This document shows, piece after piece, positions 37,001 to 60,787 of a stretch of 64,000 nt of DNA. Made by a program: the position numbers and the translations under genes. Below the pieces are notes generated by a model. The model was not told where the DNA came from. It searched no databases and saw nothing but the letters and a program-made list of their open reading frames with translations. The stretch comes from Verrucomicrobiales bacterium. Lineage in GTDB: Bacteria > Verrucomicrobiota > Verrucomicrobiia > Verrucomicrobiales > V1-33. The DNA lies in the NCBI GenBank assembly GCA_028293125.1, contig JAQGPJ010000002.1, positions 1-64,000 on the forward strand, given 5' to 3'. The first letter of the stretch is position 1. Every line of letters begins with the position of its first letter.

Positions 37001-37516
37001 GAACCGGAACTTCGGCACCAGGGTATCCGGGCTCAGGAGGATGAAGCCGGCGCGCAGCAGATGCTCCATGTCGGTCCCATCCTGGCTAATCAGGAACCAG
37101 GCGAAACCGGTGATCTCGAAGAAGGGCCGCTCGTCACTGTAGTCATCCAGCGGCGCGAAGCGCAGGCAGGCCCATATCCTGGCCCGTGCGGCCAGGTCCG
37201 GTCCTTGGAATTCTAGGCTGCCAAGCTGGAAGTGGCCGGGAGCGCCCGCGGCCAGATCCATCTCCCACTCCAAGGTCTGCGCCGGGATAGTCCAGGTGGC
37301 GGGGTCCCTGAAGCGATACACGCCATTTCCATCGGGACCCTCCAGCAGCTCCATGGGAATCTCCCGGGCCGTGCCATGGCATTGGTACCTGACCGATCTG
37401 GTGATGGTGAGTAGAACCGAGACGACGGAGAAGTGCGTGCCTTTCACATCGCCGGAGAGCAAGATTTCCAAAATCGTGCCGCTGTCTTCTTTTTTGACGA
37501 GTTCTATGGAAGCCAT
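25019..37516 (-). CDS. Giant multidomain protein of unknown function (4165 aa)
   Basis: A single 12.5-kb frame. ATG at 37516 is preceded by AAGGA 11-15 nt upstream. There is no signal peptide or classical transmembrane helix. Rough map: 1-350 beta-rich; 360-430 amphipathic helix with coiled-coil character (ELKLEQILDRVARKLKQEV); 500-1100 many strands of the type LRG.G...F.F, AsmA/lipid-transfer-like; 1090-1460 a segment rich in G.G/F strands (LREVGLGFGYRFTL; GIGLSIDAEFGVEAWLRIKI), possibly DUF6603-like; 1920-2030 fibronectin-III-like (ITYYYTIVPVDQFGQAGP); an acidic linker near 3120 (DDGDGDEDEDEEAPETED); 3200-4165 mixed domains. It could be a structural scaffold, a polymorphic-toxin-like effector or a lipid carrier; nothing decides. 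First gene of the operon. Confidence 0.85.
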   Translation of the reverse strand: MASIELVKKEDSGTILEILLSGDVKGTHFSVVSVLLTITRSVRYQCHGTAREIPMELLEGPDGNGVYRFRDPATWTIPAQTLEWEMDLAAGAPGHFQLGSLEFQGPDLAARARIWACLRFAPLDDYSDERPFFEITGFAWFLISQDGTDMEHLLRAGFILLSPDTLVPKFRFRLPKLGLSLPFDLDLSNLLPSFHFPLAWPDFNFQLPKLPFKIRAQGFQANFTGAGATGTAAFSATSLTILDAGTGTELGTVTAPGLSVALDHRRLSITAAGAASTDIPDHVLQFGTGAHQVLALAWTGARLKNDYTSPDLTSTLSIRQLSLASAVAGGELVQANGVVIVFKNGKLQPDDCQLALDFRALGERVELKLEQILDRVARKLKQEVRELGIRWQQSDASRLLRQIGDQIQDTGERLVTAGQEVAQAVQEKVAISTVWHDGRPAQLRFDWQRAQNPQQPTVRHFKLPGVTLELPVESCSGFSYSLIVDGLDKGDPQVLFLQTICPGQTAKLYPSFALGGDGGPEGGSGRYLGEEDGKDEKKEPFLTLTATPRTSPRSVVYFGQYLNGSGPRRRFLKELNPSLPDQVAAGALGIDIENIANFSAAEWALDAKFSDRFMLPFLKAKEELQNAGGAIGQALAQYVEVGNFQTSIEIPAIRCSADLRVILGRMRAEGRIALAFDLDQFAFKINVGDKLVLADTAPKIDQEFLPGLRFIFEGVLAPGGLMRYLEVHLAGGNFQIRPVPGARIRIEANTISAEPLVFRVDHFVVNGNGIDLDAVIEADKPVRLNGVGTKFRFSEGKLALRQGRVQDFTLKGEGSLPPDLVGDAEVSAWISMGERAGNFKVLNSGAELKLNKPLKCEGTKFKTSLSGLGLRFAGEPKAHFYFTLTGSAEFDPGAIPDSNALAFLPGIKLDLLNCPLTSDWSVLKKHVKFTVTLPTVKKFKFLGCFEFELRGIGFLPAADAFGGDPAIALVGQIKFALAGGDIIDARFDFHEMLLGLPKGNNPFPRIKASGLALSVAFGSAFKIGGSLDYFDGEAFDDSGIEAKGFAGTGTLLINGLPELGANFAFLRVRRPESEEWVRAWFVYLEARKFSLQMAALPLYLREVGLGFGYRFTLTSIKKADLIDDIRALLSELKVLSRSQGNLSDRRAWTIDLEKPGESPRWTVVLRAMFSFASAAGSPTEWNATKEKALPNLALFDVVMALRSDLTFLMTMRGWLFTNYHAYVEKVKPGLQENPLVSGFMLLSPRKRMFLAHMSSNENAVFGGNPELWDILEAAIKSTRFSATFLAKPGLVHMELGWPNNLRYGYKMGGILQVEISAGLLQRVETRRYISGLSLMARGRLDLEAGLSMGFFGVRVVARADVAFGARLITVIGLRNPIKDSALYMGIGLSIDAEFGVEAWLRIKIGFCKITLRFGFTFRLVFTALVEIGMDGIDLPGLRAKGTLGLKVLGRTLRIGVDVGFRKNELQRARDLTAEIMNLGLEANDGIPELPGMTGPKTFRDGAPGFHEAAPGARQAFPAEPIPADITGPDYTVLHAEWSGTDGGGTRLRYVYFMLVPRGERPRNGAPGEWEEEPAFLPPPPPVSFTTDEHGAHHEQDVDRPHVDFLIRHLNGDCTYPIEQFSREGGNYGWRSRDNRQFPTSVDWDATISEPGGVYNVQAGQEATPRQDAQPQPLSLKRYVTGAFISEFTAADGTGHTSFDEDAFETEGISLIRAAHQPALPQLEPGASLRDSRIENPADNAYEAALLASVQQLRRSPHFRHDPNSEYDQFLRQAFGGDSSTYHVTDPGATPQEPPPWVRRHENALHTRGVMLQQMISQFRDYAAKDFTAKQALEAEAATRPLLPFAFGLVFRVVLPENGEINLGWLDNPTPDPAAPDTDAPRIRQRLGPAAENPDSDEKIVRAFASRSLGFKKIAPIFRNARVFADAASIGVSWQLDWDLSKFAAQDQLSDAQRDIEHHLAYYEVTRITLQGREAPRKFRIKAADSLAPHRLETAVVVNRRLAPRYQFTDYFHGQDQAGTGADKLPLSGITYYYTIVPVDQFGQAGPARTVEATRFPEVLPQALSEAEFSICYEFVRPNHSLDLTLYDPQYAVNPDNDLAESRKLLAVQAIEVLFPRPDDFTDGGYRLVFRKEATLALGSYGLDGGTRDHATVRNPSLNTSRAPTDVIVPLVTLDPNPPPNRSGRWVRYTVTPEELEQARIKHATDWQPEAWSVFVQAVAYETAADGRLTLTVRAESSLTPARLALRFSNQGDTLAEDDPLRKVRRPALLEWLPRNFISELHPERDLQKQVEFAHVPMPVSGTYDVNPTDSPLLAGIGFLRHPKHPRMLRMRWNPAHHDKPGYPAALNAGFTLHELDLDSISSRLLKKAKPGTGGNYPDLEEYRNQIWAKTRHLSEIQLVPADEAALVPHSTLATNEWEAWYPSSVTRAKEQPDGKEHAWWSWRESYLIWPEWSSGATEEDPLEPDALTPEGQPRIRPAFNLRPHPAQLAFATTALPVFIDTAITPGAILSLQFIPGETDDPNSRILLYNPQVHPGTTASAIYDPQSKGLGITFSDVVGEITARRVILEAVRYLLFAMRPPQQESFRVKLRLELPLEPPLGQGFNNQEAEIALITTDQVPVIERYAGQHSAEKPPRAADTLHPFLGAVVRAMETENRKQLYNCEIQGLPEARTEKWEDFLADSPPGTDEYGWGLLQRLGLSLTFTLRHFSTGEPVSQKQAEERLRTAIQRTLDSQPGWALLRAHLHVEFLIQRGFATGVRLENKFNTRGLLAAMQLSLRPLPRRLLHYQRAIITAPPGQELTLFVRFHSLDDRCEMIEATAPGAAAVTLLNTNRRANPGTLVRVRTDSAGRCHLLFRGLRQEEVADVRVVIPEAGITRHFLGALSARFIETHQDETGAIWTSWDDGIFIGLQAPENRKQIRAALTKRHLSIGHGAELPGGNQIAFRFRYSGAGVPAEPLRITCNVSLTYDAGPVVTGSPPVKFISDPNDPARFGVLVLDRFVSGKELTSATVNVTAPADNLWAPLDGHASRTWTRGAPPQDTTPALPREPEPFLYIARSHPTVVLERVAHPGQASTPAEGLPAPDDAPYDVYRTFGDWPAFFGTATCIPEPRQPDDGDGDEDEDEEAPETEDRNSPQAQWHLFKALVESLRPVDPSTPAKQLLPLDTASIDTLAANFLAWTVRFHEHRGCNSGADGTEGPWQATAYPRSGAPAFAVPEDDGRLRYDHFLEDRWAHARRYYLWPFSRYDRFWHGLVEGHPAAELLTRLNGSRLPAVRRLSSAAIAFRPQDFIKRHVDASIARIEEVEAPLILASRRLDEIVPGDQALTPGKTWEVILARHPEQALADHNSTLRRRLSFRRVQWALLRRPIYLKWKSHAETQWLPPGTSVVFPAHRPDTLPQYPATALGPISKTPLEVERDNLLELALPPRGLKFHDGAMVVQWDAQPYCYAHRFIACAISGQIASPLTEILQKDFQFISPGGLTAFLAADNRPPDSPADPATLRQDDLTELLVLSFELASFWDCLPQDVRTQWPCEDPANATGNERFYTSLPDPDVGYEFLLTQGGDVARQDELHFKIASNDGSPPRNPLNNEPMNWIPAIEGKGRRILLEGRPLVSLPPAAAPATRLQMSCLASPLRSILPPQAKDETAIIHMKGSEGPVALHQRIYKSCWELSNLGREADITLASIRAGKDPVSRGHPCTLVAAELPPDMLLETGHLMIVRKGRLGTLHGGYLATLQAAAPGYQELADMLDRIRNGPEDDYQRESVLWMPLLPATADPDGSGFFPQAATFGWDPHGRIEFKAGAYLQGLPAGLPFRVAAERLLPLRDEFPEAAMAASAAELNAHFGLTDATDHFVARTGGGVIFIYSARHAPGPDLPTLRASSAGHADEARLAALWNQVEHHLTNVVPGRAEALPVPPVNRRVNDVLIVGTRLLREGSPAVVAEIANYYQGLPFEPMDLRAVPRLAAHQDFQNRMQRAFGAVEIFEQDPTDFLGEDDWTSNERHWKYRLKVEQLEDEEENPAPVFRWLGAKPGRNDIEAIIAANPGNPQVERAALALNRAPWPDNTEPNSFEQRLPTGTALQIPAGLENRLQLCQWQIRYTGILGSAHAQELADFFGSAADKEAVKRMKLATLHRALDGWKPLLRTRRGGATPGTIKVKVAPDPI

Positions 37517-43712: not shown

Positions 43713-45281
43713 CTTCCGATTACCCACAAGTTTTCTGGATTTGCACGCCGAGCATGATGTCGGCAAGCCTTCGCAGGCCCCGCCAGATGACCATATTGCC
43801 GGGCGGAGGGTCCCGCCTCCGCGCCAGATAACCTCCAAGGCGTGCAATGGCGGTGAGATAGTGTGACATGCTGTGCGGTCCTGAATCATGAGGCGGATCA
43901 GGATTAGTCAGTTGATCCAGCGCCCGGCACCCGTCCTCCGTCAACGCAAGGTCCGGCGGTGCGTCCGGCACGGCCCGGTTGAGCATGGTCATCCGGAAGA
44001 CGCGCCAGCTCACAATGCAAAACACGGAAATGAGCTTTACCAGCCGCTCTGAGGACCTCAGCAGAGACTCCTCCGCTTTGCAGCCGGATTTAAGAATCTT
44101 ATGGAATATTTCAATTTTCCATCGCAGCGCATACCAGCCTGTTTTTTCGAGGGCCTCCTCCACGGAGGTGACCGGAAGGTCCGTCAGAAGCCTCCACTTT
44201 ACCGGTTCCCTGCCTTCAGGTTCACCGTTTTCCATGACATGAATGACGGTGAGTTCCAGCGCCGGATACCGTTTCTTTTTGCCCTCCGGGGGCAGGATGC
44301 GCAGGCGGCGGTATCTGATCTCCACTTGTGCCTCCGACAGCTTTCCGTCCTTTGTTTTAAGCTGCAGCGTGCGCATGCCGCGTCCGTCAGGCGTCTCCAT
44401 CTCTTTGGCTGTCGTCAGTCCCCGCCCGCCGGCGTAACGGTCCACGCAGGTGCGGAACAGGAAGTGCGTTTTCTCCTCCTGTGCCGCGCAGAACAACTCA
44501 AAGATGTCACTTCCACGGTCACCAATGTGAACACAGCGTCCGGGATCATTAAGAGGACGGGTGGACTGCCGCAGATTCTCCAGCCAGCAGAAACTCTCCT
44601 TCTCCCTGATGGGAATGCGGGTGGTATTGACATGCCGCTTCAGTTCCGCAGCACCTTTAAATTTGCTGCGGGTCCAGAACTTGATGGCGGTCAGCCCGGG
44701 GGGCAGCCCGTCCAGGGTGAAGGCCATGCTGGAATGCATGAGCATCCCTCTTACCGTCAGGCAGGCAGGGCGCCCGGTTTTCCGGAAGTCTCTGCAGGCA
44801 AAAGCGCGTTTGAGAAGACCCATGCCCGTAATGCCCTGTCTTTGATAGGTGAACTCCGTGGTGTCATGCATGATCAGAAAGGGGCCGGCCGCCGCCTGCT
44901 CGCGGACCCGCGATGCCTCGAAATGCCCCGCCAGGATTCCCTCCTCACTCACACGCGGGTTGGAGAAAAACCGGTAAGCCGCCTTCGTGGCCGCCCAGTC
45001 CTGACAGGCAAGCGGAATGCTGCCGCCGATGCAGCGAAAGAGACTGTCCAGGAGCGTTTTAAACCTCCGGTCCAGCCGCGCGTCTCCAAAGCCTCCTTCA
45101 GCCGTTTCCCCATCCATCGGGGACATATCAGTAACTTCATTGATCCGGGGATTTTCCGGTGCTTTTCCGCGCTGCTTTCCGACGGTCATGCACAGCTTTT
45201 GAGCAAAAACGTATCACGTTGTACAGACAATTCGGCAGGGATCGCCGGTTTTTCAGACCGAAACTTGTGGGTAATTGGAAG
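43713..45281 (-). mobile_element. Intact IS4-family insertion sequence
   Basis: 1569 bp. The left end CTTCCGATTACCCACAAGTTT and the inverted right end CTTCCAATTACCCACAAGTTT differ at one base. It is flanked by the 10-bp duplication CATCCGTCAA. One intact transposase gene fills it, so it may be active. It landed beside a 65-bp terminal relic of a related element (45293-45357). Confidence 0.93.
43720..45189 (-). CDS. IS4-family transposase, intact
   Basis: 489 aa, complete. FGDARLDRRFKTLLDSLF and QDWAATKAAYRFFSNPRVSE at the N-terminus are those of Tn5/IS4-type transposases. Catalytic Asp in LIMHDTTEFTYQ, second Asp in VHIGDRGSDIFELF, and the YREK-like signature region around GWYALRWKIEIFHKILKSGC with the catalytic Glu. 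The stop codon TAA (43722-43720) lies inside the terminal repeat. A homologue with the same layout is broken at 55.8-58.4 kb. Confidence 0.93.
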   Translation of the reverse strand: MTVGKQRGKAPENPRINEVTDMSPMDGETAEGGFGDARLDRRFKTLLDSLFRCIGGSIPLACQDWAATKAAYRFFSNPRVSEEGILAGHFEASRVREQAAAGPFLIMHDTTEFTYQRQGITGMGLLKRAFACRDFRKTGRPACLTVRGMLMHSSMAFTLDGLPPGLTAIKFWTRSKFKGAAELKRHVNTTRIPIREKESFCWLENLRQSTRPLNDPGRCVHIGDRGSDIFELFCAAQEEKTHFLFRTCVDRYAGGRGLTTAKEMETPDGRGMRTLQLKTKDGKLSEAQVEIRYRRLRILPPEGKKKRYPALELTVIHVMENGEPEGREPVKWRLLTDLPVTSVEEALEKTGWYALRWKIEIFHKILKSGCKAEESLLRSSERLVKLISVFCIVSWRVFRMTMLNRAVPDAPPDLALTEDGCRALDQLTNPDPPHDSGPHSMSHYLTAIARLGGYLARRRDPPPGNMVIWRGLRRLADIMLGVQIQKTCG

Positions 45282-45292: not shown

Positions 45293-45357
45293 GGCTTACA
45301 GCCAATTTGCTGAAAACCCAATATTTTGCACGCTGAAGTTGTGGGTAATCAAAAGTC
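45293..45357 (-). mobile_element. 65-bp terminal relic of a second IS4-type element
   Basis: Read on the minus strand it begins CTTTTGATTACCCACAACTT and continues with CAGCGTGCAAAATATTGGGT and TTTCAGCAAATTGGCTGT, almost the same as the left end of the element at 55755. The rest of that element is gone. Confidence 0.8.
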
Positions 45358-45381: not shown

Positions 45382-46758
45382 CTAACGAATCCTAAGCCTA
45401 GCTGCGGGATCGCCGCATAAAACGTAGTTTCGGGCGTCCATCGCGGCAGTCCAATAACGTGCCAAACGTGAAGCTGTGCCCCGGCGAAGGTGAGTTCCCT
45501 TTTGCAACGCTGTGATCATCTCCACTGCCAGTAAAGTGGAGAGGCTGGCGTAACGTTGACCAAGATTGTGAAGGGCATGCCCCAGACGTTCGCCTCTTAT
45601 GATGCGTTCCAATGTTTGCCTGAAGTCTTCGGTCTGAGAGTCAGCGGAGCCAAACTTGAATGAAGTGGTCCAAGCTAGGTCCACGTGTCCGAAGAACCCT
45701 AACGCTGGACCTGCCGGGTGCGCGAGCAGTTGAGTAGCAAGCGCAGATTGGAAGGTGTGAGGCGCAATTTGCTCCACTTTGAGGAGATTGGGATTACCAG
45801 GGAAATTATCCATCCGTGGCGTACCGGCTCCAAAGCAAGCGAAAGAAAACCATACCAACCCACGAAGGTCCCCGGCCTGCTGCAAATCAGCGGCTGTGAA
45901 CTGTTCGCCGTTCTCGCACAGAATCGCTCCCTGACCCTTAAGTTGACCGGCGTCACCCATATCAAATCCGACGCCGTGCGTAGCACTGAACACCACCGGT
46001 ACACGTTCGCTTCCGTGCAGAAAACGTGCAAGACGATCCTTGGTGGCCTGTGGACCTGTGACGCTTTGAATCTTCCAACTGCCCGGTACGATCTTCATGG
46101 CCAAGGGCTCAATCAACTGCTTTGCGCTGAGCGAGGTCGATGGGTCGCCGTCATTGGTGGGGCCAAAGAACGCCAGCTTCTGGGTGAAGATCAGTTTCTT
46201 TTCCGCTGCGACGACTGCTTCAGCGTAGCGTTGCCACTCCTCAGGCTGGGTGAGCGTGAGGCGGCCAACGGCGTAGTCCACAGCCAACGCAGTTTGGAAC
46301 TCATACGGCACTATGACCGGCTCTCCCACAATCAAGAGGTAGTAGGGCAGCTTTGCTGGGTTGATGGTACCTGGACTGACTTGATGGCGTTCAAGCAAGG
46401 CCGATACGTCTTCTAGCTCGCCGGAGTTTGATACCTGAAGGTCAATCTCGCGGTAGAGCGGGCCGGCTACTGCCTTGCGCTCCTGCAAAAGTGGCGCGAG
46501 GGCATCCTTCACAGCGGCGGGTGTGTTGGGTGCCCAGAGCACCGCCCATCCGGTGCTGCTCAAGTCGTCGGGCACGATGCCATCAGGCAATCCGCCCTTG
46601 AACTCAATATTATCTGGCACCACCGCCACGGGCTCTGCGCGACGCACGCCACCCAAGGTCTGAAGGATCCACGAGGCCAGTACCTCCGCGCTTACGGGCG
46701 GGCGGAGGGGTTTGCCTGTGCCCGCATGGATCCCCATGGGTTGAAACTTTTCTAACAT
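45382..46758 (-). CDS. Gingipain-like (C25 / clan CD) cysteine peptidase
   Basis: 458 aa, no signal peptide. VDYAVGRLTLTQPEEW (160-175) is the C25-like strand motif (D.a.GR...). VVFSATHGVGFDMG gives the catalytic His261, LVWFSFACFGAGTP gives the catalytic Cys308; the C-terminal YVLCGDPAARLR matches the GDPa.rl end seen in C25 and CHAT peptidases. Gingipains cleave after Arg or Lys, but specificity is not readable here. Lack of a leader suggests a cytoplasmic enzyme, unlike secreted gingipains. It is the last gene of the eight-gene operon, 57 nt after the 472-aa gene, whose product may be a partner or substrate. Confidence 0.75.
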   Translation of the reverse strand: MLEKFQPMGIHAGTGKPLRPPVSAEVLASWILQTLGGVRRAEPVAVVPDNIEFKGGLPDGIVPDDLSSTGWAVLWAPNTPAAVKDALAPLLQERKAVAGPLYREIDLQVSNSGELEDVSALLERHQVSPGTINPAKLPYYLLIVGEPVIVPYEFQTALAVDYAVGRLTLTQPEEWQRYAEAVVAAEKKLIFTQKLAFFGPTNDGDPSTSLSAKQLIEPLAMKIVPGSWKIQSVTGPQATKDRLARFLHGSERVPVVFSATHGVGFDMGDAGQLKGQGAILCENGEQFTAADLQQAGDLRGLVWFSFACFGAGTPRMDNFPGNPNLLKVEQIAPHTFQSALATQLLAHPAGPALGFFGHVDLAWTTSFKFGSADSQTEDFRQTLERIIRGERLGHALHNLGQRYASLSTLLAVEMITALQKGTHLRRGTASRLARYWTAAMDARNYVLCGDPAARLRIR

Positions 46759-46815
46759 AACTTCGAATTGGGGAAAAGTGTTGTGGAGAAGCCAGCGCCG
46801 ACGCGACCGCAGTAT

Positions 46816-48234
46816 CTACTTCTGCTGGGCGACAAGGACTGCGGGCTTCAGCACGGTCCCGTCTGCGTTGCTGAACAGCTGCCCGCGCACGGTGGTGAAA
46901 GGTGACTTCCAATCGATACTGGCATAGAGCGGACGGATGGCATTCACGGCTGATTCTACTTCCGCGTCCCGATTCCCTTTCTCATCCTCAATCAGCAGCT
47001 TGAGCCCGTCCATGAGCATGCGCGCCCCAAGAGTACAACAGGGCATGCCACGCTGGATGGCGGCGAGGAATCGTTCGCGAGCCTGTGGTAGGCGACCGCA
47101 CCGCAGGTGCTGGCTGGCATTGATGATGGCCCCATCAGCCAAATGTTTAAAATATTGGTCGAGATTGTCTACCCATTGGGTGAGTTCCACAGCTGTGACA
47201 CCCGCGATCCTAGACCGCTTGCGAGTCCAAGGGGGGGTCATCAGCAACAGATAGTATCCACCGATAAGGGCCGCGGAGAGATTACGGAACTTGCCCTCCA
47301 AGGCACGGATTGCATGCGATAGATACTCGTCCGCAATCACGCGGGCTTGGTTAAAATGTCCGCCGCTCAGATAGCTGTAGAGCACCATGGCGTGACGATC
47401 ATTGAACTCGGGCATGAGATTCCAAGGGGATGCGACCTCGCAGACCTGCTTCTGAGTCGGGTCAAAGATTACAAGCAATCGTGTCGTCTCTGGCGGCAAA
47501 AAAGCAAAAGTTTGGAGTGGGAACTTCGATGCCTCCGCCTGAGTCACTGGTGAATCATCGATTGCCAGCACCGGCACCGTGCCCGCAGGAAAATGGCACT
47601 CGAACTCAGCGACCACGTTGGGATCATTCGTCGCGCTGTACAGTCCCGAAAGTCTCTCCAACACATACTCTGTCCCCGCTGGAGCAAGACGTAGCAGTGA
47701 TCCCGGCTGCCTCAGTGGCTGGGAGTCCGCCATTTGCAAATACAGGTCAGCCTTGAACCAATGTCGCAGGATGGATGCTGATGGCTGTTCTATTGGGATG
47801 CTTCTTGCTTCTGCGGCGGGCTCGAACGCAGCAGATTCTAGGGTCGAAAGAACTTGGATGCTTGCGGTTGTCTGGGGAGCCTTGAATTGCGAGCCTAATG
47901 ATTTGAGGGCTGAGGTACTCAACGCCCGCCTGCCCGGATGAAGTAGATAACCCCAGGCAGCGGTCTCATTCGGTGAAAAGATGCTATCCAGATAGAATTC
48001 CCCCTGGCCTTTGCCTTCCATTACTTCGATGTTTTTGGCCACCAATCCACCGTTTGGCAGTCGCAAGCGTACCACATAGCGCCCATCCGCGACGCCAGAT
48101 ATGGTCTCCGTGCTGCCCAATTTCAGAGCAACGCTTCTGGTTCTTCTACCCTTGCGAAGTGGGATGATTTCAGCCGCGACGATCGAGCCATTCGCCGAAC
48201 CGCCGTGCACATGGAGAGTCAAGCTGCTATTCAT
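46816..48234 (-). CDS. Unknown protein with N-terminal beta-sandwich and helical C-terminus
   Basis: 472 aa from ATG 48234; an in-frame TTG at 48246 overlaps the caspase stop. Residues 1-80 (SSLTLHVHGGSANGSIVAAE; ISGVADGRYVVRLRLPNGG) look like a carboxypeptidase-regulatory-like or prealbumin-like beta-sandwich. The middle (about 150-290) is mixed alpha/beta with no motif. The C-terminal 200 residues are helical and Cys/Arg-rich (LRCGRLPQARERFLAAIQRG), TPR-like in character. No catalytic motif. It lies between two caspase-fold peptidase genes, so it could be their substrate, adaptor or inhibitor. Family not recognised. Confidence 0.75.
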   Translation of the reverse strand: MNSSLTLHVHGGSANGSIVAAEIIPLRKGRRTRSVALKLGSTETISGVADGRYVVRLRLPNGGLVAKNIEVMEGKGQGEFYLDSIFSPNETAAWGYLLHPGRRALSTSALKSLGSQFKAPQTTASIQVLSTLESAAFEPAAEARSIPIEQPSASILRHWFKADLYLQMADSQPLRQPGSLLRLAPAGTEYVLERLSGLYSATNDPNVVAEFECHFPAGTVPVLAIDDSPVTQAEASKFPLQTFAFLPPETTRLLVIFDPTQKQVCEVASPWNLMPEFNDRHAMVLYSYLSGGHFNQARVIADEYLSHAIRALEGKFRNLSAALIGGYYLLLMTPPWTRKRSRIAGVTAVELTQWVDNLDQYFKHLADGAIINASQHLRCGRLPQARERFLAAIQRGMPCCTLGARMLMDGLKLLIEDEKGNRDAEVESAVNAIRPLYASIDWKSPFTTVRGQLFSNADGTVLKPAVLVAQQK

Positions 48235-48242
48235 GGCTTCAA

Positions 48243-49355
48243 TCAAACATCAGGAACTTCCACTGGGTAAACCGGGGGCACGAGACGTTCCTCCTCCTTG
48301 GTCCGGACAGGGGAGTTTTTCATGTGAATTTTGATATCGTAGTCGCCCACAGCAAATGCATGCCGGTAGGGATGGCACACCGGGTGCTCCGCACCATCCC
48401 TTCGGTCTGTGAAAATACAGCTGTCAACTTCATCCAAGGCTTGCCCCAAATCCACGTTCGTCAGTACTTCCGGCTCCTTAATGCTGCAGATGCGTTTGGT
48501 GCCTGCGGTGCTTTCCATATTCAAGGCAAGGACAGGGGCTTCGCCCTGCCCGCGACGGTCGAGATATTCCTCAAGCGCTCTGCCTAAGGAGGTGGTCGTC
48601 ACCCTCCAAGGATTGCGGCCATCATTCGCCGAGGCTCCGTAACGCTTTAGGCATTCAATCAGGCCCACAGTAAAATCCGAAGGGAGGTTCTTCTGGCTTG
48701 CAGCACGCTGGCCCTCCGCCGCAGAGTGGTAGACCGGCGCTTCGCGTTTGGGAGTAAAGCCCTTCTCGGGAGACGCCAGCGTGCGGCCAACGGGCCCGGT
48801 GGTCAACAGGGCCTGGCGCGCAAGGTCCTGACAGGCATCGATGAAGAAACACTGGGTCTCCGCCCGGCACCTGGCCATTCCCTTGTGCGTCGCATTGAGG
48901 TCGATGCAGTCCTCCCAAGGAGTGTTTTTGTCCGAGCATACATCTTCCGGCAGGATATAGGATGATTCATTGATGAAGCCGTGCCCACAGAAGTAGAAAA
49001 GGGCCACGCAATTCTTGTGCTCATTGCACGCTTCGATCCAGTCATTGAAGTGCCTCTTGATGTTGCCAAACGTGGGGGTATCCACTGTTGTCTCCGAATT
49101 GTCCGACCGGACGAACTTACCACCACTCAACAATACACGAGCCGATCCAAAGGGGACCGCCAAGCTGGCTTTCTCGTCCAGCAGCCAATTGGCAAACAGG
49201 GAGGCCGAAGGCACCGGTGAAGTCAGCTGCTTCAAGGTGCTCAGTATGGTGGCGTCCGCTTTCACTCCACCTGCAAGGTGCGGATAATCATTGACCCCGA
49301 TGATCAGGGCGTGGGTCGCGGGTGAGGCGGTGGTGCGTTCTACAATTGTGGCCAT
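48243..49355 (-). CDS. Caspase-fold peptidase (metacaspase type)
   Basis: 370 aa. THALIIGVNDYPHLAGGVKA (14-33) is the first strand of the p20 unit (usual form ALLIG...Y). VALFYFCGHGFINESSYILP (117-136) contains catalytic His125, and CFFIDACQDLARQ (169-181) contains catalytic Cys175. About 190 residues follow, including NPWRVTTTSLGRALEEYLDR (the p10-like region) and a short beta tail. There is no signal peptide or fused sensor domain. Prokaryotic metacaspases cleave after basic residues and act in regulated death or defence; this is family knowledge, not shown here. It is followed immediately by the 472-aa gene and preceded by the nuclease 30 nt upstream. Confidence 0.9.
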   Translation of the reverse strand: MATIVERTTASPATHALIIGVNDYPHLAGGVKADATILSTLKQLTSPVPSASLFANWLLDEKASLAVPFGSARVLLSGGKFVRSDNSETTVDTPTFGNIKRHFNDWIEACNEHKNCVALFYFCGHGFINESSYILPEDVCSDKNTPWEDCIDLNATHKGMARCRAETQCFFIDACQDLARQALLTTGPVGRTLASPEKGFTPKREAPVYHSAAEGQRAASQKNLPSDFTVGLIECLKRYGASANDGRNPWRVTTTSLGRALEEYLDRRGQGEAPVLALNMESTAGTKRICSIKEPEVLTNVDLGQALDEVDSCIFTDRRDGAEHPVCHPYRHAFAVGDYDIKIHMKNSPVRTKEEERLVPPVYPVEVPDV

Positions 49356-49385
49356 GACACCAAGAGATATGACGAACTGGACGGG

Positions 49386-50324
49386 TCACCTGAGCACAAT
49401 GTCTTCAAGTCCCTCAAGCACCAATCCCGGAACGTCCTTCCCCTCGGCAAAGCCGAGTGACAGATCCTTCAACGGGTCGACACTGGCCACTTCGCCGAAG
49501 TCCAGACCGGTGATTTTCTCCAAGTCGGAGACTTTGATCTGGTCGGTTTTGAAATCCCCAGGGGAAAAGCCTTTGAACGAGCCAGGTTTGGGCATGGTGA
49601 GGCATTTCTTTTTGAACGCCAGGGCCAGCAATCCATTTCCACTTTCATTGCGCGTTACCACCAGCTTGTAGAAGGAGTCTGGGACCGCGATGGTATCATC
49701 CAAATAAAGCGGGTCGTCGTCCGTAAGGATGGGGCCGGTGAATACGGTGACCCGGCTGTGGCGATCCCCAGCCTCCTCAATGATGTGATCCTCCAAGTCC
49801 CCCCAAAGGCCGTCATTGAAGGTCTGCACCTGCGGCAACGCGTTGGGATAATGGGAAGTGTCTGCATTGGCTTGCGTTGCCGCCTCGACCGAGCCCCAGA
49901 GGGGATCCGTCCTGCGCACCATGTGGCCGCGACTGAAGGTATCCGGTCCGTAGAGCGTTTCGTCATCAATCTGGCAGTCCACCGCGCGGGGATCGCGCCT
50001 GAAGGAGCGCCGCTTGATTTTGAAAAAGGGCTCGTCGCCCGCGATATTTACCACCGCCACCCGGCAGAACTTCCGGCTTGCGCTCATGATTACTGAGAAA
50101 TTCCTGTAGCAGAGTTCCGTGGGCAGATGTCCCTCATGAGGTTCCTTGATTTTGAATCCGTCCGCCTCGTGAATCCCGAGAATGCCTTCGAGAGGAACGA
50201 TGAATTTCTCCGCGCCCTCGGAGATGTTACCATTTTCGTCACGTGTGAGGAAAGCGGGATCATAACCATTGCGGTCAGCAAAATCCGTTGCTTTGATGGC
50301 GAAACTTTCGAGTTCGTCTGACAT
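49386..50324 (-). CDS. DNA/RNA non-specific endonuclease (NUC1 family)
   Basis: 312 aa, no signal peptide. FSRGHMVRRTDPLWG (130-144) is the DRGH motif of Endonuclease_NS (PF01223) with Ser in place of the first Asp; the general base is His134. NALPQVQTFNDGLWGDLE (161-178) supplies the Mg-binding Asn (N170) and the E178 helix. Serratia-type nucleases cut both strands of DNA and RNA; most are secreted, but this one lacks a leader and so could degrade the cell's own or invading nucleic acid. The first 70 residues and last 60 are extensions not seen in minimal members. It sits between the subtilase (35 nt) and the caspase (30 nt). Confidence 0.9.
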   Translation of the reverse strand: MSDELESFAIKATDFADRNGYDPAFLTRDENGNISEGAEKFIVPLEGILGIHEADGFKIKEPHEGHLPTELCYRNFSVIMSASRKFCRVAVVNIAGDEPFFKIKRRSFRRDPRAVDCQIDDETLYGPDTFSRGHMVRRTDPLWGSVEAATQANADTSHYPNALPQVQTFNDGLWGDLEDHIIEEAGDRHSRVTVFTGPILTDDDPLYLDDTIAVPDSFYKLVVTRNESGNGLLALAFKKKCLTMPKPGSFKGFSPGDFKTDQIKVSDLEKITGLDFGEVASVDPLKDLSLGFAEGKDVPGLVLEGLEDIVLR

Positions 50325-50359
50325 AGGTCGCAGGAATGGAAGTTGTGGCGGATTGATGA

Positions 50360-52438
50360 CTACTGGCTGATGCGAACAACCAGTGCGTAAGATTGGGGGC
50401 GCAGAGTAATTCGAGCAGCTTTGACCGTGATGGTAAGCACGCCGGCGGCGGGGTCATCCCATGCCACCTGCTCCACGTTATTTGCGCGATCAAAGCTGGG
50501 ATCATTCGGCTGCCGGTTCCCATGACATTCGGTGCCGGCGCTGTCACGAACGATGAGGTCCAAGTCACTCTGCAAGTCCGGACCGGGTGGGTCGGTCCAT
50601 ACGAGAGTCACCTTTATCTTCGTTCCAGCAGCAAGAGTTACGTCGCGGCTCTCGATTTCCTGGGTATCCAGTTCGCTGCCTTCATCAAAAAAGGACAGTG
50701 TCACCGAAGCTTCGTGATTGATGGTATCCGCCACGTTGACGCGGCCAAAGCCTTCGCTGTTGTTCGGAACGGCAGGCGCCTCAGAGGGATTGTATTGGCC
50801 GGTCATGTCGGTCGCACCATTGATCAGCAGCGCCTTCATCAACGCCGCACTGGGATTAGTAGTGACATGTTGCGTGGCCAGCCATTCCCGGACCAGCGCC
50901 GCGCAACCCGCCACCAATGGAGTGGACATGCTGGTGCCCCGGGAAAAGCGGTAGTCGGGATCAACTGTTGGCATGACCACCGAGGCTGCGGGCATCTTCC
51001 GTGATCGGGCGGAAAGTATGAATGTGCCTGGCGCCACGACATCAGGCTTGATGCGTCCATTCAAGGTGGGACCCCTTCCGCTGAATGCTGCCATGCCATC
51101 GGCATTGTGCGCTTGGTGATCATCGCTGATCGGCGGAACAGGCCAGCGATTGTCTGGCCCCCAGGTCAGTGATACCGGTGACGGACTGGGAGCAAAGGGG
51201 TTACTGGGTCTCAGGTTTTCACTCGCACCAACCGTGAGGCAATTCTTCGCCGTTCCGGGAGCGGTCACAGACTTGGGCGCGATCACGCCACTGGAGTTGA
51301 TATCCCTGCCCTCATTCCCAGCGGCAAACAGGACCAGCATGTTACGATTTTTGTAGACGAAGTCATCCACCTCCTCGGAGCTGGCACTGTAGGTTCCGGC
51401 GGAACCGGCGGTCCCCCAGGAATTCGTATGCGTGCGAGCGCCATCGTTGGCATAGGGCGGGTGAAGCAATTGGTGCATATCAACTGGAAGACCGCCAAGT
51501 GTATCGTTGGCATTTCTATAGCAGCTTTGCAGCACCAGCATGGCCTCCGGGGCCGTGCCCTGCACCCGCACTCCAAGAGCAGTTGAGTTCCCGTCCCCCA
51601 GTACCGATCCGGCCACGTGAGTGCCATGCCCATGTGGGTCACTTGCATCCGGGGGGCTTTTGCGCCCCAGGGCATATAGCGTCTTAACCTTGCCGAGGAA
51701 GGCCGGATGAATGGTCGAGTCCTTCATTCCATTGTCGAATCCCGTGTCGGCCACTGCTACCACCTCACCTTCTCCTGTGAAAGCCGGTTGCCCGGTAGCG
51801 CTCGCCAAAGGGACGGCGAGAATGCCGCGTGCCACATTGTTGCTGAGTTCAGGTGGGAAGACTCTTTCGATTTGGCTGACCACGTCGAGCCTTTTCATCT
51901 GTTCAATCGCGGATGGTGCGGCACGCAATCTGACCTTGCGAGTGCCCCGGGATTCCTGAGGGATCTCCTGATCGATGGCCGCTTCCACCTGCTTGACCCC
52001 CTGCTCCAAGGCGACATCCTGGTGAAAAACCACGTCCACTTCCTGCACTTCGTCACGGGGACGGCCTTGTGGTGAAGCCATCTCTTCAAAAGCAACGACA
52101 TCAGGCTTTTTCGTAAGATGCGTCAGCGCCGGGTCCACTTTGAAAATTTCATAGTAGGGAAGGACCGTCTTGACGAAGGGCAGCGCCAGTAATGAGTCCG
52201 CGTTGGAAGGCAGGAACCGGCATTTGACAGTGCTGTCTGACTTGTACTCCAGAACTTCACCGCCAGCATCAGCCAGCGCTTGAGCCAGCCCCTTCTTCAC
52301 GTCGGGATCCGCCAAATCGGAAACCACCACCAAAGCGTAGTTGGTCTTAGCGACGGACTCGGGAAGCATGGCCGCAGCTGAATCGAAGGACGCTGGCGCA
52401 TCGAGATCGAAAACAATATTGTTGATGGTAATCTGCAT
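50360..52438 (-). CDS. Subtilisin-like serine peptidase (S8), leaderless
   Basis: 692 aa. Residues 1-215 are an unusual N-terminal region with strand/helix pairs (ALVVVSDLADPDVKKGLAQA) like a tandem inhibitor-I9 prodomain. The catalytic domain spans 220-540: VVAVADTGFDNG (Asp231), DPHGHGTHVAG (His271), AAGNEG (oxyanion Asn375) and SRGTSMSTPLVAG (Ser503). The last 120 residues are a P-domain-like beta-sandwich (VTLVWTDPPGPDLQSDLDL). No signal peptide, so it probably works in the cytoplasm after prodomain removal. The position upstream of a nuclease and a caspase suggests a possible activator or executioner role; this is inferred only from the operon. Confidence 0.92.
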   Translation of the reverse strand: MQITINNIVFDLDAPASFDSAAAMLPESVAKTNYALVVVSDLADPDVKKGLAQALADAGGEVLEYKSDSTVKCRFLPSNADSLLALPFVKTVLPYYEIFKVDPALTHLTKKPDVVAFEEMASPQGRPRDEVQEVDVVFHQDVALEQGVKQVEAAIDQEIPQESRGTRKVRLRAAPSAIEQMKRLDVVSQIERVFPPELSNNVARGILAVPLASATGQPAFTGEGEVVAVADTGFDNGMKDSTIHPAFLGKVKTLYALGRKSPPDASDPHGHGTHVAGSVLGDGNSTALGVRVQGTAPEAMLVLQSCYRNANDTLGGLPVDMHQLLHPPYANDGARTHTNSWGTAGSAGTYSASSEEVDDFVYKNRNMLVLFAAGNEGRDINSSGVIAPKSVTAPGTAKNCLTVGASENLRPSNPFAPSPSPVSLTWGPDNRWPVPPISDDHQAHNADGMAAFSGRGPTLNGRIKPDVVAPGTFILSARSRKMPAASVVMPTVDPDYRFSRGTSMSTPLVAGCAALVREWLATQHVTTNPSAALMKALLINGATDMTGQYNPSEAPAVPNNSEGFGRVNVADTINHEASVTLSFFDEGSELDTQEIESRDVTLAAGTKIKVTLVWTDPPGPDLQSDLDLIVRDSAGTECHGNRQPNDPSFDRANNVEQVAWDDPAAGVLTITVKAARITLRPQSYALVVRISQ

Positions 52439-52474
52439 TGCGTTGCCAGTGGTTTAAAGGATGGTGGGAGAAAC

Positions 52475-53434
52475 TCACGCAATGGCCTTGGAGGCGTAGT
52501 GAACCTTGTCGCGATCGCCCTGTCTCCAAGCATAGTTCAAGGTCTTGTTTTTCTCACCTGAGCCGCCCAACCTTCCCCAGTAGGCGGTGGGATACTTCCC
52601 GTGAGCCAATCCTCCAGTCACAACCACCACAACGTGGCCATGCGATGAAGGCTGTGCCTGCTCGTTGCCGCGAAGACCTCCCACCACAAACTCGCCGCTG
52701 TCAGCCGCCGCCTTCGCAGCTGCGCCGTCGGCAATCTGGCGCCAACCAGGCCCTGTGATGATGTCGGTGATGTGATTGGCGTCACCGTCTAGGCCGGCTA
52801 CTCCGACCAAGGCAGCCACCGCTTTTGCAAACGCATTGCAGTCGGCCTTGTTGCCTTCCCATTGGTCTTCACAGGAAGCGAGAATGCGGGCAGCCTTGGC
52901 ATTGACCGTATCCATGACCACAGGCGTTTCTGCGCTGGGCGCAAAAGCGGCAAAGGTATCACCCGCCAGAACAGCCGATTCCTGCCCCGGAGGTGACAGG
53001 GCCAGCCGGTTCAATCTGTCTTCCATGATCGCCACCCGGTCTGCCATGGGTCTCTGCTCTGGCGGTTGCGAGCCTCCTGGATAGTCTTCGCCTTCTTCCT
53101 TTCGTGGGTTCTTGCGCCGACCATCAAGGAACCATGTCCAAGTGAAGACGCCGTTAGAATTTTTCACCAAGATCATGAGCAAGGCGAAGTAACTGAAAAA
53201 GCCCATGAACAGGCCTATCCCGTAGGCGCCGAACATTTCTTCCTTGGTCAACTCCTGATTCTTGGACTCAAACAAGGTCATGACCGAACCGCCACCGATG
53301 ATGCCGATGAGCGTGGTGAGATCGCTGAACTGGACATCACCCTTGCGATAACGGTTGATGTAGTAAACAAACCAACCAATGAGGACACCGAAGGCGGCGG
53401 ATCCAAGCAGTGGAAGCGTGTGCGCGGAAGTCAT
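52475..53434 (-). CDS. Membrane-anchored papain-like hydrolase (putative amidase/NlpC-like)
   Basis: 319 aa. Three hydrophobic segments: LPLLGSAAFGVLIGWFVYYI (7-26), LTTLIGIIGGGSVMTLF (39-55) and YGIGLFMGFFSYFALLMILV (71-90). A charged, Pro-rich linker follows to about 175. Residues 180-319 look papain-like: KADCNAFAKAVAALVGV puts Cys199 at a helix start, and SSHGHVVVVVTGG gives His265/His267 at a strand, the order found in NlpC/P60, CHAP and type VI amidase (Tae) proteins. The substrate could be peptidoglycan or a protein; the side of the membrane is not clear. Overlaps the preceding 87-aa gene by 4 nt (ATGA), so the two are coupled. Confidence 0.7.
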   Translation of the reverse strand: MTSAHTLPLLGSAAFGVLIGWFVYYINRYRKGDVQFSDLTTLIGIIGGGSVMTLFESKNQELTKEEMFGAYGIGLFMGFFSYFALLMILVKNSNGVFTWTWFLDGRRKNPRKEEGEDYPGGSQPPEQRPMADRVAIMEDRLNRLALSPPGQESAVLAGDTFAAFAPSAETPVVMDTVNAKAARILASCEDQWEGNKADCNAFAKAVAALVGVAGLDGDANHITDIITGPGWRQIADGAAAKAAADSGEFVVGGLRGNEQAQPSSHGHVVVVVTGGLAHGKYPTAYWGRLGGSGEKNKTLNYAWRQGDRDKVHYASKAIA

Positions 53435-53694
53435 GAGTCAGATGTGTTGGATTGAATTGCAGACAGGAATGCGGTGTGAAGGGCGGCCCCCAGCAAAAAT
53501 CCGGTGGGCGCTCCCCACCAAGCCCCGGTAAACATGATGCTCACGAGGAAACTTGTGAGCAGGCAGGCGGCAACCATGACAATACCCGGCAGCAATCGGA
53601 GCCATGCGCGCCCCACCAACACCGCAGCCCAGCCAAGCACCAGCCCGACTATTCCGTGAGGCAATGTACGCCATAGGTCAGATTCAATGTTCAT
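53431..53694 (-). CDS. Small integral membrane protein (87 aa)
   Basis: Three hydrophobic segments: GIVGLVLGWAAVLVGRAWL, LLPGIVMVAACLLTSFLVSI and WWGAPTGFLLGAALHTAFLS. The arrangement resembles the N-terminal three-helix part of the next gene's product. It overlaps both neighbours by 4 nt, so the three are translated together. It could be a partner of the membrane hydrolase, or a small pore or anchor; no family recognised. Confidence 0.75.
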   Translation of the reverse strand: MNIESDLWRTLPHGIVGLVLGWAAVLVGRAWLRLLPGIVMVAACLLTSFLVSIMFTGAWWGAPTGFLLGAALHTAFLSAIQSNTSDS

Positions 53695-55523
53695 GGTTTG
53701 AAGGCAAATTCCAAGGACTCGATCTCCAGCAGCACGTGGGCATCTTTCTTGGATGCCACCTGCAGACCCAGCACAAGGGCGGCGTTACTGACAGATTGAA
53801 TCACTTCTCTGGCGTGGCCCTTGCCCAAGAAGTCCAGATAACGCTTCACCAGATCTTCGGCGAGAGCATTCACTATCCTATATTTGTAATCAATTGGCAG
53901 GATGAGAAACGCGCTGGTAAAACGTTGCATGCCGGCGGAGAAGGAATGCTTACAGTCCACTCGCAGGTCGTAATAGCCACACAGTTGAATGCCTAGCACA
54001 TGCTTAAGCACGGCCTTGATTCTCGCTTTCAAAGTGTCTTCGCTCAACATATCGGGCGGAATGGCCCCCACCTCAATGGGTGAGAAGAAGCGGTTGGCCA
54101 TCCGCACCAACTCAGGGTAATAAACGGGGGCACACACATAGACCAAGCAGGAGGTGGCCTTGAAATCTAGGAAGCTGTCGTTCCGTGCTAACCGTAGATT
54201 GGGCCGGAAGGCGGTGGCGCTCTTCTCACCGAACAAGCTCAATATCCCATTGTCTGCCACCCCATCCGCTTCCGCCTTGATGACAAACCGCGTTATTCCC
54301 GTCGCGGGGGCAATTTCACCGTCCTCAATGGGCGCAATCTGCGCCACCACGCGCCTGCGTTTCTGATTGTCGGAGTGGCCAGCAACGATTATGGGAGTTC
54401 CCGACAGTGACAAATCGCCTTCCGTCGGCTTTTCGGTTTTGGATGACAGAACGGTCCGTTTGCGAAGATCAAATTCGTTAAATATAGGCACAATTTTATT
54501 CGCAGCATTATCTCCGAATGGCAGGAGGTTATAGTCCCTGATGGCGCTTGGTGGTTCAAGAGTGAGGTTACCGCCGACTATGGCAGTGGTGAGGCGTCCC
54601 ATCGCCTTCCTTGAGTGGGTGGATAGAATGCATTTTCCGGATTCGCTGGTCAGCTCGACAAACGAGGCTTCCGTAGTCGTCTGGCGAGTGATATTTTCAA
54701 ACCCAAAGCCATATACGGCGGTGCCGCCCCAATGAATTGCCAGCCTCATCCCGAGCCGCAGCGGCACAACTCCCAGCTTTTCACCAGCCAATGTTCGAGC
54801 AGAATCGGCAACGCGGATGAACTGCTGAGGAAAGTAACGAATGTAGGGAGCCGTCGAAGGTTTGAGCGCATCCAAAGGTAGTGGCTCCTGCCAGGAAAAG
54901 AAGTCGTCAAACCTCGCCGTATACACCACCTTGCGCCAGAAGTTCCTCAGCTTCTCTTCAAATAGGTCCGCAAAGCCCGCAATCGGCTTGTTCAGACAGT
55001 TCAAAAGATACTTCGGCTGGTTTTGCCGTACCAGCCAACAGCCAAATTTGTGCTGCAATGACCTGAACTCATTCCAGCTTAGCTTGCGAATCTCCCGAAC
55101 CGTGGCAGCACTCGCGATGATGACCAATTTCCCTTCCTTGGCAGCCGGACGGAGCACCTCAATCTTATGCGCCGGCGTCCTAGACAATGGATAACCCAAG
55201 ATTACGGCGGGGTTGCGGTTATCCTTGAGCAGGAAGTCATTCATCTCCGACCGTGCCCTAGTGGCAGGTATCCCCATATTGTTCTTCCTTGAGCGAAATA
55301 CAAGTGCACCCTCGGCATCGCCTACTGCGATACTCTCGCGGCATTCGCACCCCGTCCCAGTGATCCAAGCCAACGGCACGATATCAAACGAATCGCTGGC
55401 GTGCAAAGTGGATGCAATGGTGCCTGCTGCACCGACCAAAGCAAAAACATGAAAGATACACCGGACAATCTGATGGGCCAACGTCGCAGGCAAGCGACTT
55501 TGAGTGATGCTTATAGGCCACAT
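53691..55523 (-). CDS. Unknown 610-aa protein, first gene of the hydrolase operon
   Basis: ATG at 55523 is preferred over a TTG two codons earlier. A hydrophobic stretch near the N-terminus (IVRCIFHVFALVGAAGTIAS, about 19-38) looks like a signal anchor. The next 150 residues (AVILGYPLSRTPAHKIEVLR; KLVIIASAATVREIRKLSWN) are alpha/beta. The middle has beta strands with the phrase IHWGGTAVYGFGFENITRQT, and the C-terminal 200 residues are helical with LGIQLCGYYDLRVDCKHSFS. No catalytic motif is seen and I do not know the family. As the promoter-proximal, probably membrane-anchored member it is the best candidate for a sensor or regulator. Confidence 0.75.
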   Translation of the reverse strand: MWPISITQSRLPATLAHQIVRCIFHVFALVGAAGTIASTLHASDSFDIVPLAWITGTGCECRESIAVGDAEGALVFRSRKNNMGIPATRARSEMNDFLLKDNRNPAVILGYPLSRTPAHKIEVLRPAAKEGKLVIIASAATVREIRKLSWNEFRSLQHKFGCWLVRQNQPKYLLNCLNKPIAGFADLFEEKLRNFWRKVVYTARFDDFFSWQEPLPLDALKPSTAPYIRYFPQQFIRVADSARTLAGEKLGVVPLRLGMRLAIHWGGTAVYGFGFENITRQTTTEASFVELTSESGKCILSTHSRKAMGRLTTAIVGGNLTLEPPSAIRDYNLLPFGDNAANKIVPIFNEFDLRKRTVLSSKTEKPTEGDLSLSGTPIIVAGHSDNQKRRRVVAQIAPIEDGEIAPATGITRFVIKAEADGVADNGILSLFGEKSATAFRPNLRLARNDSFLDFKATSCLVYVCAPVYYPELVRMANRFFSPIEVGAIPPDMLSEDTLKARIKAVLKHVLGIQLCGYYDLRVDCKHSFSAGMQRFTSAFLILPIDYKYRIVNALAEDLVKRYLDFLGKGHAREVIQSVSNAALVLGLQVASKKDAHVLLEIESLEFAFKP

Positions 55524-56233
55524 AATCAAATCTTGAGAAGCGCGAAGTCAACTGAGCATGCTAATTTTTCTCGTATTACATATGAGCAAATATAAGAGAA
55601 ATATTCTTGGGGCAAGTTTTTTTTCGATTCTTTTGCGAATTTAGTGGGTTGGACTGTAAGCGTCACCTCAAGCGCCTTGGGGATTGATTTGACTCAGGCG
55701 ATGCGCGCTTTACGGGGTTTGGCCCATGCGGCTGAGGTATAGCCGGGAAGGCCGCTTTTGATTACCCACAACTTCAGCGTGCAAAATATTAAGTTTTCAG
55801 CAAATTGGCTGTGCAACCGTAAAGCCAATTTGCTGAAAAGCCGGGATGAAAAACCAAAAACCGGACCGCGGCGGCAGCAATCGCGCACCTCTCCGTCCTG
55901 AAGGCGGTGATCCTGACGGCTGGGCTGATGAGGAGGCGCGGGCGTCAACTTTCGCGGACGAGCGGCTCCGGAAACGGTTCCGGCGGCTGCTGGGCGAGGT
56001 TCATGACCGCATCGGCGGCGGCATTCCGCACGCCTGCCAGGACTGGGCGGCGGTGAAGGCGGCCTATCGCTTCCTTTTCAATCCCAAAGTGAGCGGGGCC
56101 GGCATCCTGGCCGGCCATTTTGAGGCCCCACGCGCGCGGTTCCAGGCCGCGTCCGGCACGGTTCTGATTCTCCACGACACCACGGAGTTTGTGTTTCAGC
56201 GGGAGAGCGCGGCCGGTTTCGGCCTGCTCACTA

Positions 56234-57383: not shown

Positions 57384-58509
57384 GGCCCGCCTGGGCGACG
57401 GACGGGAGATGACAGTGCGCGGCCTGCTGATGCACTCCAGCATGGCCCTGACGCTGGATAGCGTGCCGCTGGGCCTTGCCGCCGTCCAATTCCGGAGCCA
57501 CCAGCGGTTCAAGGACGCCAACGCTTTCAGGCTCAAAGCCAATTCGGCCCGTATTCCCATTGAGGAGAAGGAAAGCCACCGCTGGCTGGAGAATCTCGGG
57601 GAGCCCGGTCGCCTGCTGGGCAATCCGGAGCGGCAGGTGCATATCGGAGACCGGAAAAGTGATATTTATGAGCTTTTTTGCATGGCGCAAAGCGGGCATG
57701 CGCACTTTTTGGTCCGCACCTGCGCGGACTGCCTGACGGAGGCGGAGGGACACACGATGGCCAAAGCCATGGAGAAATCGGATGGCTCCGGTTCCCACAC
57801 TTTGTTTTTTGATGCCGGGGACGGGCGTGTGGAGGAGGCCTGGCTGGACGTCCGCTGGCGGCGGTTGCGGATCCTGCCGCCCGTCGGCAAACGGGTGCGC
57901 TGGCCGGAGCTGGAGCTGAGCGTGATCCACGCCACGGAGCGCGGCGCGCCCGCAGGACGCGAACCCATTGATTGGAAACTGCTCACCAGCCTGCCGGTCT
58001 CCAGCCTTGGATAGGCCGTCGGGAAAATGGACTGGTACGCCCTGCGTTGGAAAATCGAAACTTTTCATAAGATCCTCAAATCCGGCTGCCGAGCGGAGGA
58101 CTCCCAGTTGAGGACCTCGGAGCGGGTGGTGAAACTGATCGCGCTTTATTGCATTGTAAGCTGGCGTGTGTTCTGGATGACCATGCTCAACCGGGCCAAC
58201 CCGCGGGCGGAGGTTTCGCAGGTCCTGACACCGGAGGAGCAGGCGGCGCTGGGCGCCGCCGTTCCTCCAAAGAGGGGCCATCCGCCACACAGCACCCTTG
58301 GTGATTATCTCAAGGCGTTGGCCAGGCTTGGAGGCTGGCTGGCGCGGGCCGGGGACAGCCCGCCGGGAAACATGGTCATCTGGCGCGGCTGGCTGCGACT
58401 GGGGGACATGCTATTGGGCTTCAAAATCGCCGAAACTTATGGGTAATCAAAAGGGTCACACCCCTCCTATGTGATTTCCGGAATTATTTGCCCTAAGGCC
58501 TAACCGTAA

Positions 58510-60350: not shown

Positions 60351-60405
60351 GCCTCATTATTTTGGTGCTACGGAAATCCGTGTAATATAAGCGGTGCGCG
60401 CAGCC

Positions 60406-60787
60406 TTTTGATTACCCACAACTTCAAAGTGAAAAATATTTGGTTTTCAGGAAAATTGGCTGTGCAACGTAAAGCCAATTTGCTGTAAAGCCGGGATGAA
60501 AAACCAAAACCAGACCGCAGTGGCAGCAATCGCGCACCTTTCCGTCCTGAAGGGGGAAATCATGACGGCTGGGCTGATGAGGAGGCGCGCGCTTCCACCT
60601 TCGCGGACGAACGGCTCCGGAAACGGTTCCGCCGGCTGCTGGGTGAGCTTCATGACCGCATCGGCGGCAGCCTTCCATACGCCTGTCAGGATTGGGCGGC
60701 GGTGAAGGCTGCCTGCCGGTTCCTTTCCAACCTCAAAGTGAGTGAGGCCGGCATCTTGGGCGGCCATTTTGAAGCCACCCGCGCGTG
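60406..60787 (+). mobile_element. IS4-type element, 5'-terminal relic
   Basis: It begins CTTTTGATTACCCACAACTT and follows the element at 55755 closely through the start of its transposase (QDWAAVKAACRFLSNLKVSE) up to FEATRAW. It breaks off about 60787, where the coupling-protein relic begins. Confidence 0.85.

Follow-up and report, generated by a model that had tools for sequence, protein, structure and literature searches.

A CanB-like protein encoded between caspase and C25-like peptidase genes of a Verrucomicrobiales bacterium is probably a regulatory partner of the caspase

The window analysed here is a stretch of 64,000 nucleotides (positions 1 to 64,000 of contig JAQGPJ010000002.1, assembly GCA_028293125.1) from a Verrucomicrobiales bacterium. 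Its (-) strand contains a run of six genes which, in 5' to 3' order, encode a 319-aa protein (52475..53434), an S8 subtilase (50360..52438), a DNA/RNA non-specific endonuclease (Endonuclease_NS, EXOG-like; 49386..50324), hereafter NUC1, a caspase (Peptidase_C14; 48243..49355), a 472-aa protein that we call CanB-like (46816..48234), and a C25-like cysteine peptidase (45382..46758). The same-strand gaps upstream of the caspase gene are short, i.e., 30 nt to the NUC1 gene, 35 nt between this gene and the subtilase gene, and 36 nt between the latter and the gene of the 319-aa protein. The stop codon of the caspase gene is separated by 8 nt from the ATG of the CanB-like gene, which ends 57 nt before the C25-like gene. 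No terminator-like site was detected on the (-) strand between positions 52438 and 45382, in a scan in which such sites were no more common than in shuffled sequences. The GC content of the six genes is 0.55-0.58, versus 0.62 for the window.

The catalytic motifs of the enzymes in this cluster are present. The 370-aa caspase matches PF00656 with 44.3 bits (cut-off 21.4; E 2.2e-11) and contains the CGHG and DAC motifs with H125 and C175. The best rows obtained with its structural model correspond to the MALT1 paracaspase (Z 21.9, 215 residues, rmsd 2.7). These MALT1-type alignments mostly span residues 9-293 only, and the C-terminal part of the model, where a caspase of the canu system (see below) would have an Ig-like domain, contains strands at 288-345 with a pLDDT of about 50-60. 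Assignment to the EACC1-associated caspases was rejected (NF047832, 32 bits versus a cut-off of 140). The C25-like peptidase matches Peptidase_C25 (E 2.2e-6, 27.6 bits, cut-off 23), with its His in ATHG (259-262) and its Cys in FACFG (306-310); the two neighbours of the 472-aa protein are thus those named in a preliminary description of this DNA. The subtilase contains the DTG, HGTH and GTSM motifs and NUC1 the RGH motif, and solved relatives of NUC1 include mitochondrial EXOG. The 319-aa protein, whose membership of the cluster is uncertain, has hydrophobic segments in its N-terminal third and matched no family over its cut-off. DCN and GH motifs are present in its C-terminal stretch, and our guess is that it might be a membrane-bound cysteine hydrolase.

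A region of 10.4 kb containing these genes is bounded by 58-bp inverted repeats that are 97% alike (45298-45355 and 55755-55812). A Tn5-like transposase gene (43723-45189) adjoins the left repeat outside the cluster, and beyond the right repeat there are inverted arms about 70% alike to parts of this transposase gene. Since the repeats are flanked in this way, the cluster may move as a cassette, and it is possibly a composite transposon carrying the caspase genes. Additional copies of the repeat end are located at 58433-58453 (3 mismatches) and 60405-60425. A 612-aa ORF (53691-55529), which separates the gene run from the right-hand repeat, has no family match in Pfam or PADLOC, and a gene for a trypsin-like peptidase (58812-59687) is located just beyond the repeat-bounded cluster. 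Elsewhere in the window, two giant neighbouring ORFs on the (-) strand (16825-24981 and 25019-37516; 2718 and 4165 aa; GC3 0.86) gave no Pfam match at an E-value of 0.001.

The interval 46816-49355 comprises the CanB-like and caspase genes together. The CanB-like ORF itself spans positions 46816-48246, encoding 476 aa when read from an in-frame TTG and 472 aa from the ATG at 48234. Among 100 base-shuffled versions of the surrounding 11 kb, the longest ORF reached 248 aa. The ORF is therefore not due to chance, and the gene reported between the caspase and C25-like genes is real. Its product matched none of the families of Pfam, NCBIfam and PADLOC at an E-value of 1; a single match was obtained among PDB sequences, with an E-value of 0.3, and nothing was found in phage records or in a scan of viral contigs. 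AlphaFold2, using eight sequences, produced a model of moderate quality (mean pLDDT 57, pTM 0.59) with strands over residues 3-82 (pLDDT of ten-residue blocks 67-86), an unreliable middle, and helices over residues 280-438 (blocks 57-93). This matches the beta-sandwich start and helical, repeat-like end proposed in the preliminary description, and we delimit the parts as a beta-sandwich (1-82), a variable middle of low confidence (~84-272) and TPR-like helices (~277-440). A Foldseek search with the model gave no match at an E-value of 0.001 or better. VIA-align 2 placed the first 90 residues on beta-sandwich domains with Z-scores up to 9.0 (82 residues; 7.8 for a CnaB domain). For the helices it aligned TPR proteins (O-GlcNAc transferase over 136 residues, with a Z of 9.9 and an rmsd of 3.5); this Z is below the value of about 13 under which it is unsafe for repeats, and Pfam did not detect a TPR in the protein. 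On the basis of the model, the protein would have an Ig/CnaB-like N-terminus and a TPR-like C-terminus, with no named relative; because both arrangements are common, we define its fold no further. Of the original designation as a protein of unknown fold, it stands that no family library names it, but both ends resemble common folds.

Sequence and profile searches identified 34 further loci of the CanB-like family, distributed over five phyla (Pseudomonadota, Bacteroidota, Actinomycetota, Deinococcota and the phylum of the window). A tblastn search revealed three plasmid relatives, and matches in 3 of the 387 genomes of the window's phylum, its own included (two new). The profile matched 5 of these 387 genomes, 6 of 297 in the order of G388, 2 of 274 in the class of G389 and 3 of 241 in the order of G387; four of these 16 genomes have weak partial matches, and four (G000, G388, G389 and G387) were known beforehand. 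A scan of genome contigs yielded 7 loci from 46 pattern-matching stretches. The family is rare and patchy in distribution. Four weak matches (G261/L020, G315/L021, G536/L041 and G593/L042; profile E-values 9e-5 to 7e-4) were set aside before counting. Three of them cover only the N-terminal sandwich and that of L021 only a stretch of 49 positions, and none has a caspase-profile match in the 1.5 kb on either side. Near-copies were also left out (H35, H37, H41 and 18 other Agrobacterium records matching like H42, which is L014), and L023, being the same place as L006, was counted once. Residues shared across alignments of up to 19 sequences include W354, D367, G396 and P398. One homologue (L072) is annotated as a "pYEATS domain-containing protein".

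In 34 of the 35 loci, window included, a caspase is encoded directly upstream of the CanB-like family or is fused to it. Seven loci (L069, L071-L076) had been found via the caspase and one (L016) via the MBL nuclease described below; because these eight are excluded from it, the unbiased figure is that for the loci found by family queries, window not counted, of which 25 out of 26 have a caspase next to or fused to the family member. The exception, L014, is a fragment (142 aa of the family plus an MBL gene). Homologues are therefore not commonly found without a caspase, and the association suggested earlier held up. Since some of the counted loci contributed to the local profiles, the E-values that these give there are not independent; annotated records, with their label "caspase family protein", point the same way. 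A search with the window caspase gave 24 records, of which ten fell in loci already counted, eight were opened and six were left unopened (H176, H178, H185, H189, H194 and H196). Seven of the eight opened regions contain a CanB-like partner next to or fused to the caspase. In the eighth (L070, which belongs to this count and lies outside the 35 loci), the caspase match is split over two ORFs, followed by an IS21 gene, and there is no partner.

In five loci (L016, L047, L048, L053 and L075) the caspase and its CanB-like partner form a single ORF. Moreover, the distances between caspases correlate with those between their partners (Mantel r 0.60, with 0 of 5000 permutations as high; 27 loci, after 7 of 34 rows had been dropped as near-copies by caspase distance). 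Such co-divergence means that the two genes were inherited together, for which a shared operon is sufficient, and is not proof of contact. Over full-length alignments, identity to the proteins of the other loci does not exceed 32% for the window caspase and 28% for its partner.

The genes beside the pair vary. An MBL nuclease is encoded downstream in 17 loci (L009-L016, L025-L027, L047, L048, L051, L052, L055 and L071, with L014 having only the family fragment), and an alpha/beta-hydrolase upstream in 14 (L007, L008, L022, L024, L028, L049, L050, L053, L054 and L072-L076). Operons of alpha/beta-hydrolase, caspase and CanB-like genes form a second major branch; no MBL nuclease was seen in those 14 loci. 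In two loci, the CanB-like domain is fused to trypsin-like and phospholipase D domains (L006, 9356-14722; L069, 6245-10369), with the genes of an M12 metallopeptidase and then a caspase just upstream, and in L056 the CanB-like protein is fused to a class-3 lipase. The remaining locus is the window, with NUC1 and the C25-like peptidase. Except for the MBL of canu (see below), we regard these neighbours as putative effectors. Apart from the window, 31 of 34 loci encode their candidate effectors separately. Near the caspase-CanB loci L050 and L056, a NUC1-related nuclease domain is fused to a trypsin-like protease, whereas the NUC1 gene of the window is stand-alone and precedes the caspase gene.

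Mapped on a tree of 34 caspase rows, the effector label shows 7 changes, compared to a minimum of 4 and a mean of 14.3 for shuffled labels, none of 200 shuffles being as low as 7. Therefore, effectors have been exchanged, yet are mostly inherited. The branches of this tree are long and its forks weak, and the position of the window in it is unsupported. Two MBLs that were scanned match Avs1a with 211 and 195 bits, below the cut-off of 420, and the one that was scanned in PADLOC also scores to LmuA and RTasMBL. Neither the CanB nor the caspase profile matches in six regions that were reached only through the MBL (L063-L068); thus, this MBL family also works without the pair.

The closest described system is canu of Klebsiella aerogenes, an antiphage system comprising the caspase CanA, CanB and the pro-nuclease CanC (PMC12799240). 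CanA resembles MALT1 (DALI score of 20.7 for KaeCanA), CanA and CanB co-purify as a soluble complex that activates CanC, TPR and Ig-like domains are reported in canu loci, and the CanAB complex is proposed to sense a phage helicase, directly or indirectly (PMC12799240). The canu order, caspase-X-MBL with X belonging to the CanB-like family, is found in 16 of our loci, three of which have the caspase and X fused, in addition to L014 with its fragment of X. As in canu, in the window the gene of a MALT1-like caspase is directly followed by that of a non-catalytic protein; however, a C25-like gene takes the place of the MBL nuclease gene downstream, and the neighbours are the NUC1, S8 and C25 genes. 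One canu-type MBL query against the window's own genome, run with no positive control, found none. We rejected the window as a member of canu in the strict sense, since CanC is lacking. The label "CanB-like" is accordingly a provisional one, taken from the gene order in the 16 loci and the predicted architecture. MBL, caspase and CanB queries against plasmids and E. coli genomes did not reach the CanB of Klebsiella itself.

Caspase and alpha/beta-hydrolase pairs have been described within the VMAP ternary systems (Kaur et al. 2020, PMC7159879). These resemble 14 of the 35 caspase-CanB loci, in which the caspase is likewise encoded beside an alpha/beta-hydrolase, but the constant partner in our loci is the CanB-like protein. 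Placement of the window cluster in VMAP was rejected because there are no MoxR, vWA or VMAP genes alongside: the seven products of the cluster (45382-55529) gave no Pfam match to any of the three.

We consider it probable that the 472-aa protein is a non-catalytic regulatory partner, of the CanB type, of the MALT1-like caspase, wired here to other effectors. The observations behind this reading are the family itself, its architecture, gene order, fusions, co-divergence and the exchange of effectors. A bridging or regulatory subunit predicts a constant caspase and partner, fused to each other or to candidate effectors, as observed. Because the family is constant with the caspase while the neighbouring enzyme changes, the protein is probably the helper of the caspase rather than its victim, and because the caspase-X-MBL order is that of canu, where CanB co-purifies with the caspase, it is most likely of the CanB type. 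It would then form a complex with the caspase, probably keeping it inactive or in place until infection is sensed, and its TPR-like domain may serve to detect the trigger or to bring in the effector. Once active, the caspase would act on a co-encoded effector, which in canu is the MBL pro-nuclease. In the window, the effector candidates are NUC1 and, less surely, the S8 and C25 peptidases. Stand-alone NUC1, with mitochondrial EXOG among its solved relatives and with the trypsin-fused nucleases of L050 and L056 as its cousins, seems the most natural of these. By analogy with canu, the locus may have an antiphage role.

A second reading, in which the 472-aa protein is a sensor whose TPR-like domain binds the trigger and switches on the caspase with no contact to an effector, overlaps with the preferred one. 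It agrees with the TPR-like domain of the model, with the helicase sensing proposed for CanAB (PMC12799240), and with the candidate effector being a separate protein in most loci, but the effector fusions in L006, L056 and L069 suggest that CanB-like proteins also contact effectors. We regard a pure sensor as unlikely.

The preliminary description had proposed a caspase substrate or adaptor. A substrate, from which a cut between the sandwich and the helices would free an active or inhibitory fragment, is suggested by the adjacent caspase gene and by two ordered ends with some 190 poorly modelled residues between them. One would expect such a substrate to retain the site at which it is cut, and the middle region shows no basic site of this kind. 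When 19 sequences, that of the window among them, are aligned, Arg or Lys does not reach 70% of the rows at any column of the linker (residues 91-273), so the conserved basic linker site sought to support cleavage was not found. R157 is the only column that reaches 50%, the aligned linker varies from 108 to 229 aa, and the conserved K315 and R395 are located in the TPR-like domain. Moreover, the candidate effectors are separately encoded in most loci (see above), and the activation demonstrated for canu targets the nuclease (PMC12799240). These results make a substrate quite improbable. The adaptor half of the proposal, favoured by the lack of conserved Arg or Lys in the interdomain stretch, gained support from the caspase fusions in five loci, the effector fusions in three, the co-divergence, and the co-purification of CanB with CanA (PMC12799240).

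That the 472-aa protein and the C25-like peptidase form a second protease module, independent of the caspase, is very improbable: although the two genes are on the same strand, 57 nt apart and with no terminator-like site detected between them, none of the four opened regions around relatives of this peptidase (6 records found) contains the CanB-like family or a caspase-profile match, all four have a CHAT-domain gene, which in two of them directly adjoins that of the peptidase, and in 34 of its 35 loci the family goes with a caspase. The peptidase was likewise rejected as a conserved partner of the family. In the plasmid loci L059, L060 and L061, each peptidase gene related to that of the window is directly preceded by a hypothetical gene, and the region also contains a CHAT-domain gene.

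Returning to the CanB-type partner, we tentatively propose that caspase and CanB-like protein together make up a general, mobile core for signalling. Canu would be one of its branches, and the core would drive MBL, alpha/beta-hydrolase, PLD and class-3 lipase effectors and here an EndoG/EXOG-family nuclease, the CanB-like protein bridging the protease and an interchangeable effector. Should a single caspase-adaptor pair act through membrane, nucleic-acid and proteolytic effectors, infection sensing and target choice by bacterial caspases would best be studied in the adaptor. If so, the CanB-like family profile would also be a tool for finding unannotated defence loci, and the window would represent a bacterial caspase-EndoG pairing. 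With an EXOG-like nuclease beside its caspase, the locus would have a parallel in animal apoptosis and its nucleases. Already in print are canu (PMC12799240), which represents the nuclease branch, and the caspase-alpha/beta-hydrolase pairs in VMAP (PMC7159879), and caspases and NucA/EndoG-like nucleases have been named among shared effectors (PMC8195603). The accessible text of this literature was not found to describe a CanB-like partner joined to several effector types, or one with hydrolase or NUC1 effectors. Finally, TIR-domain genes and a second caspase gene are present beside canu-type operons (L012, 1655-3032; L016, 275-2151 and 6126-8174), which suggests stacked defence systems.
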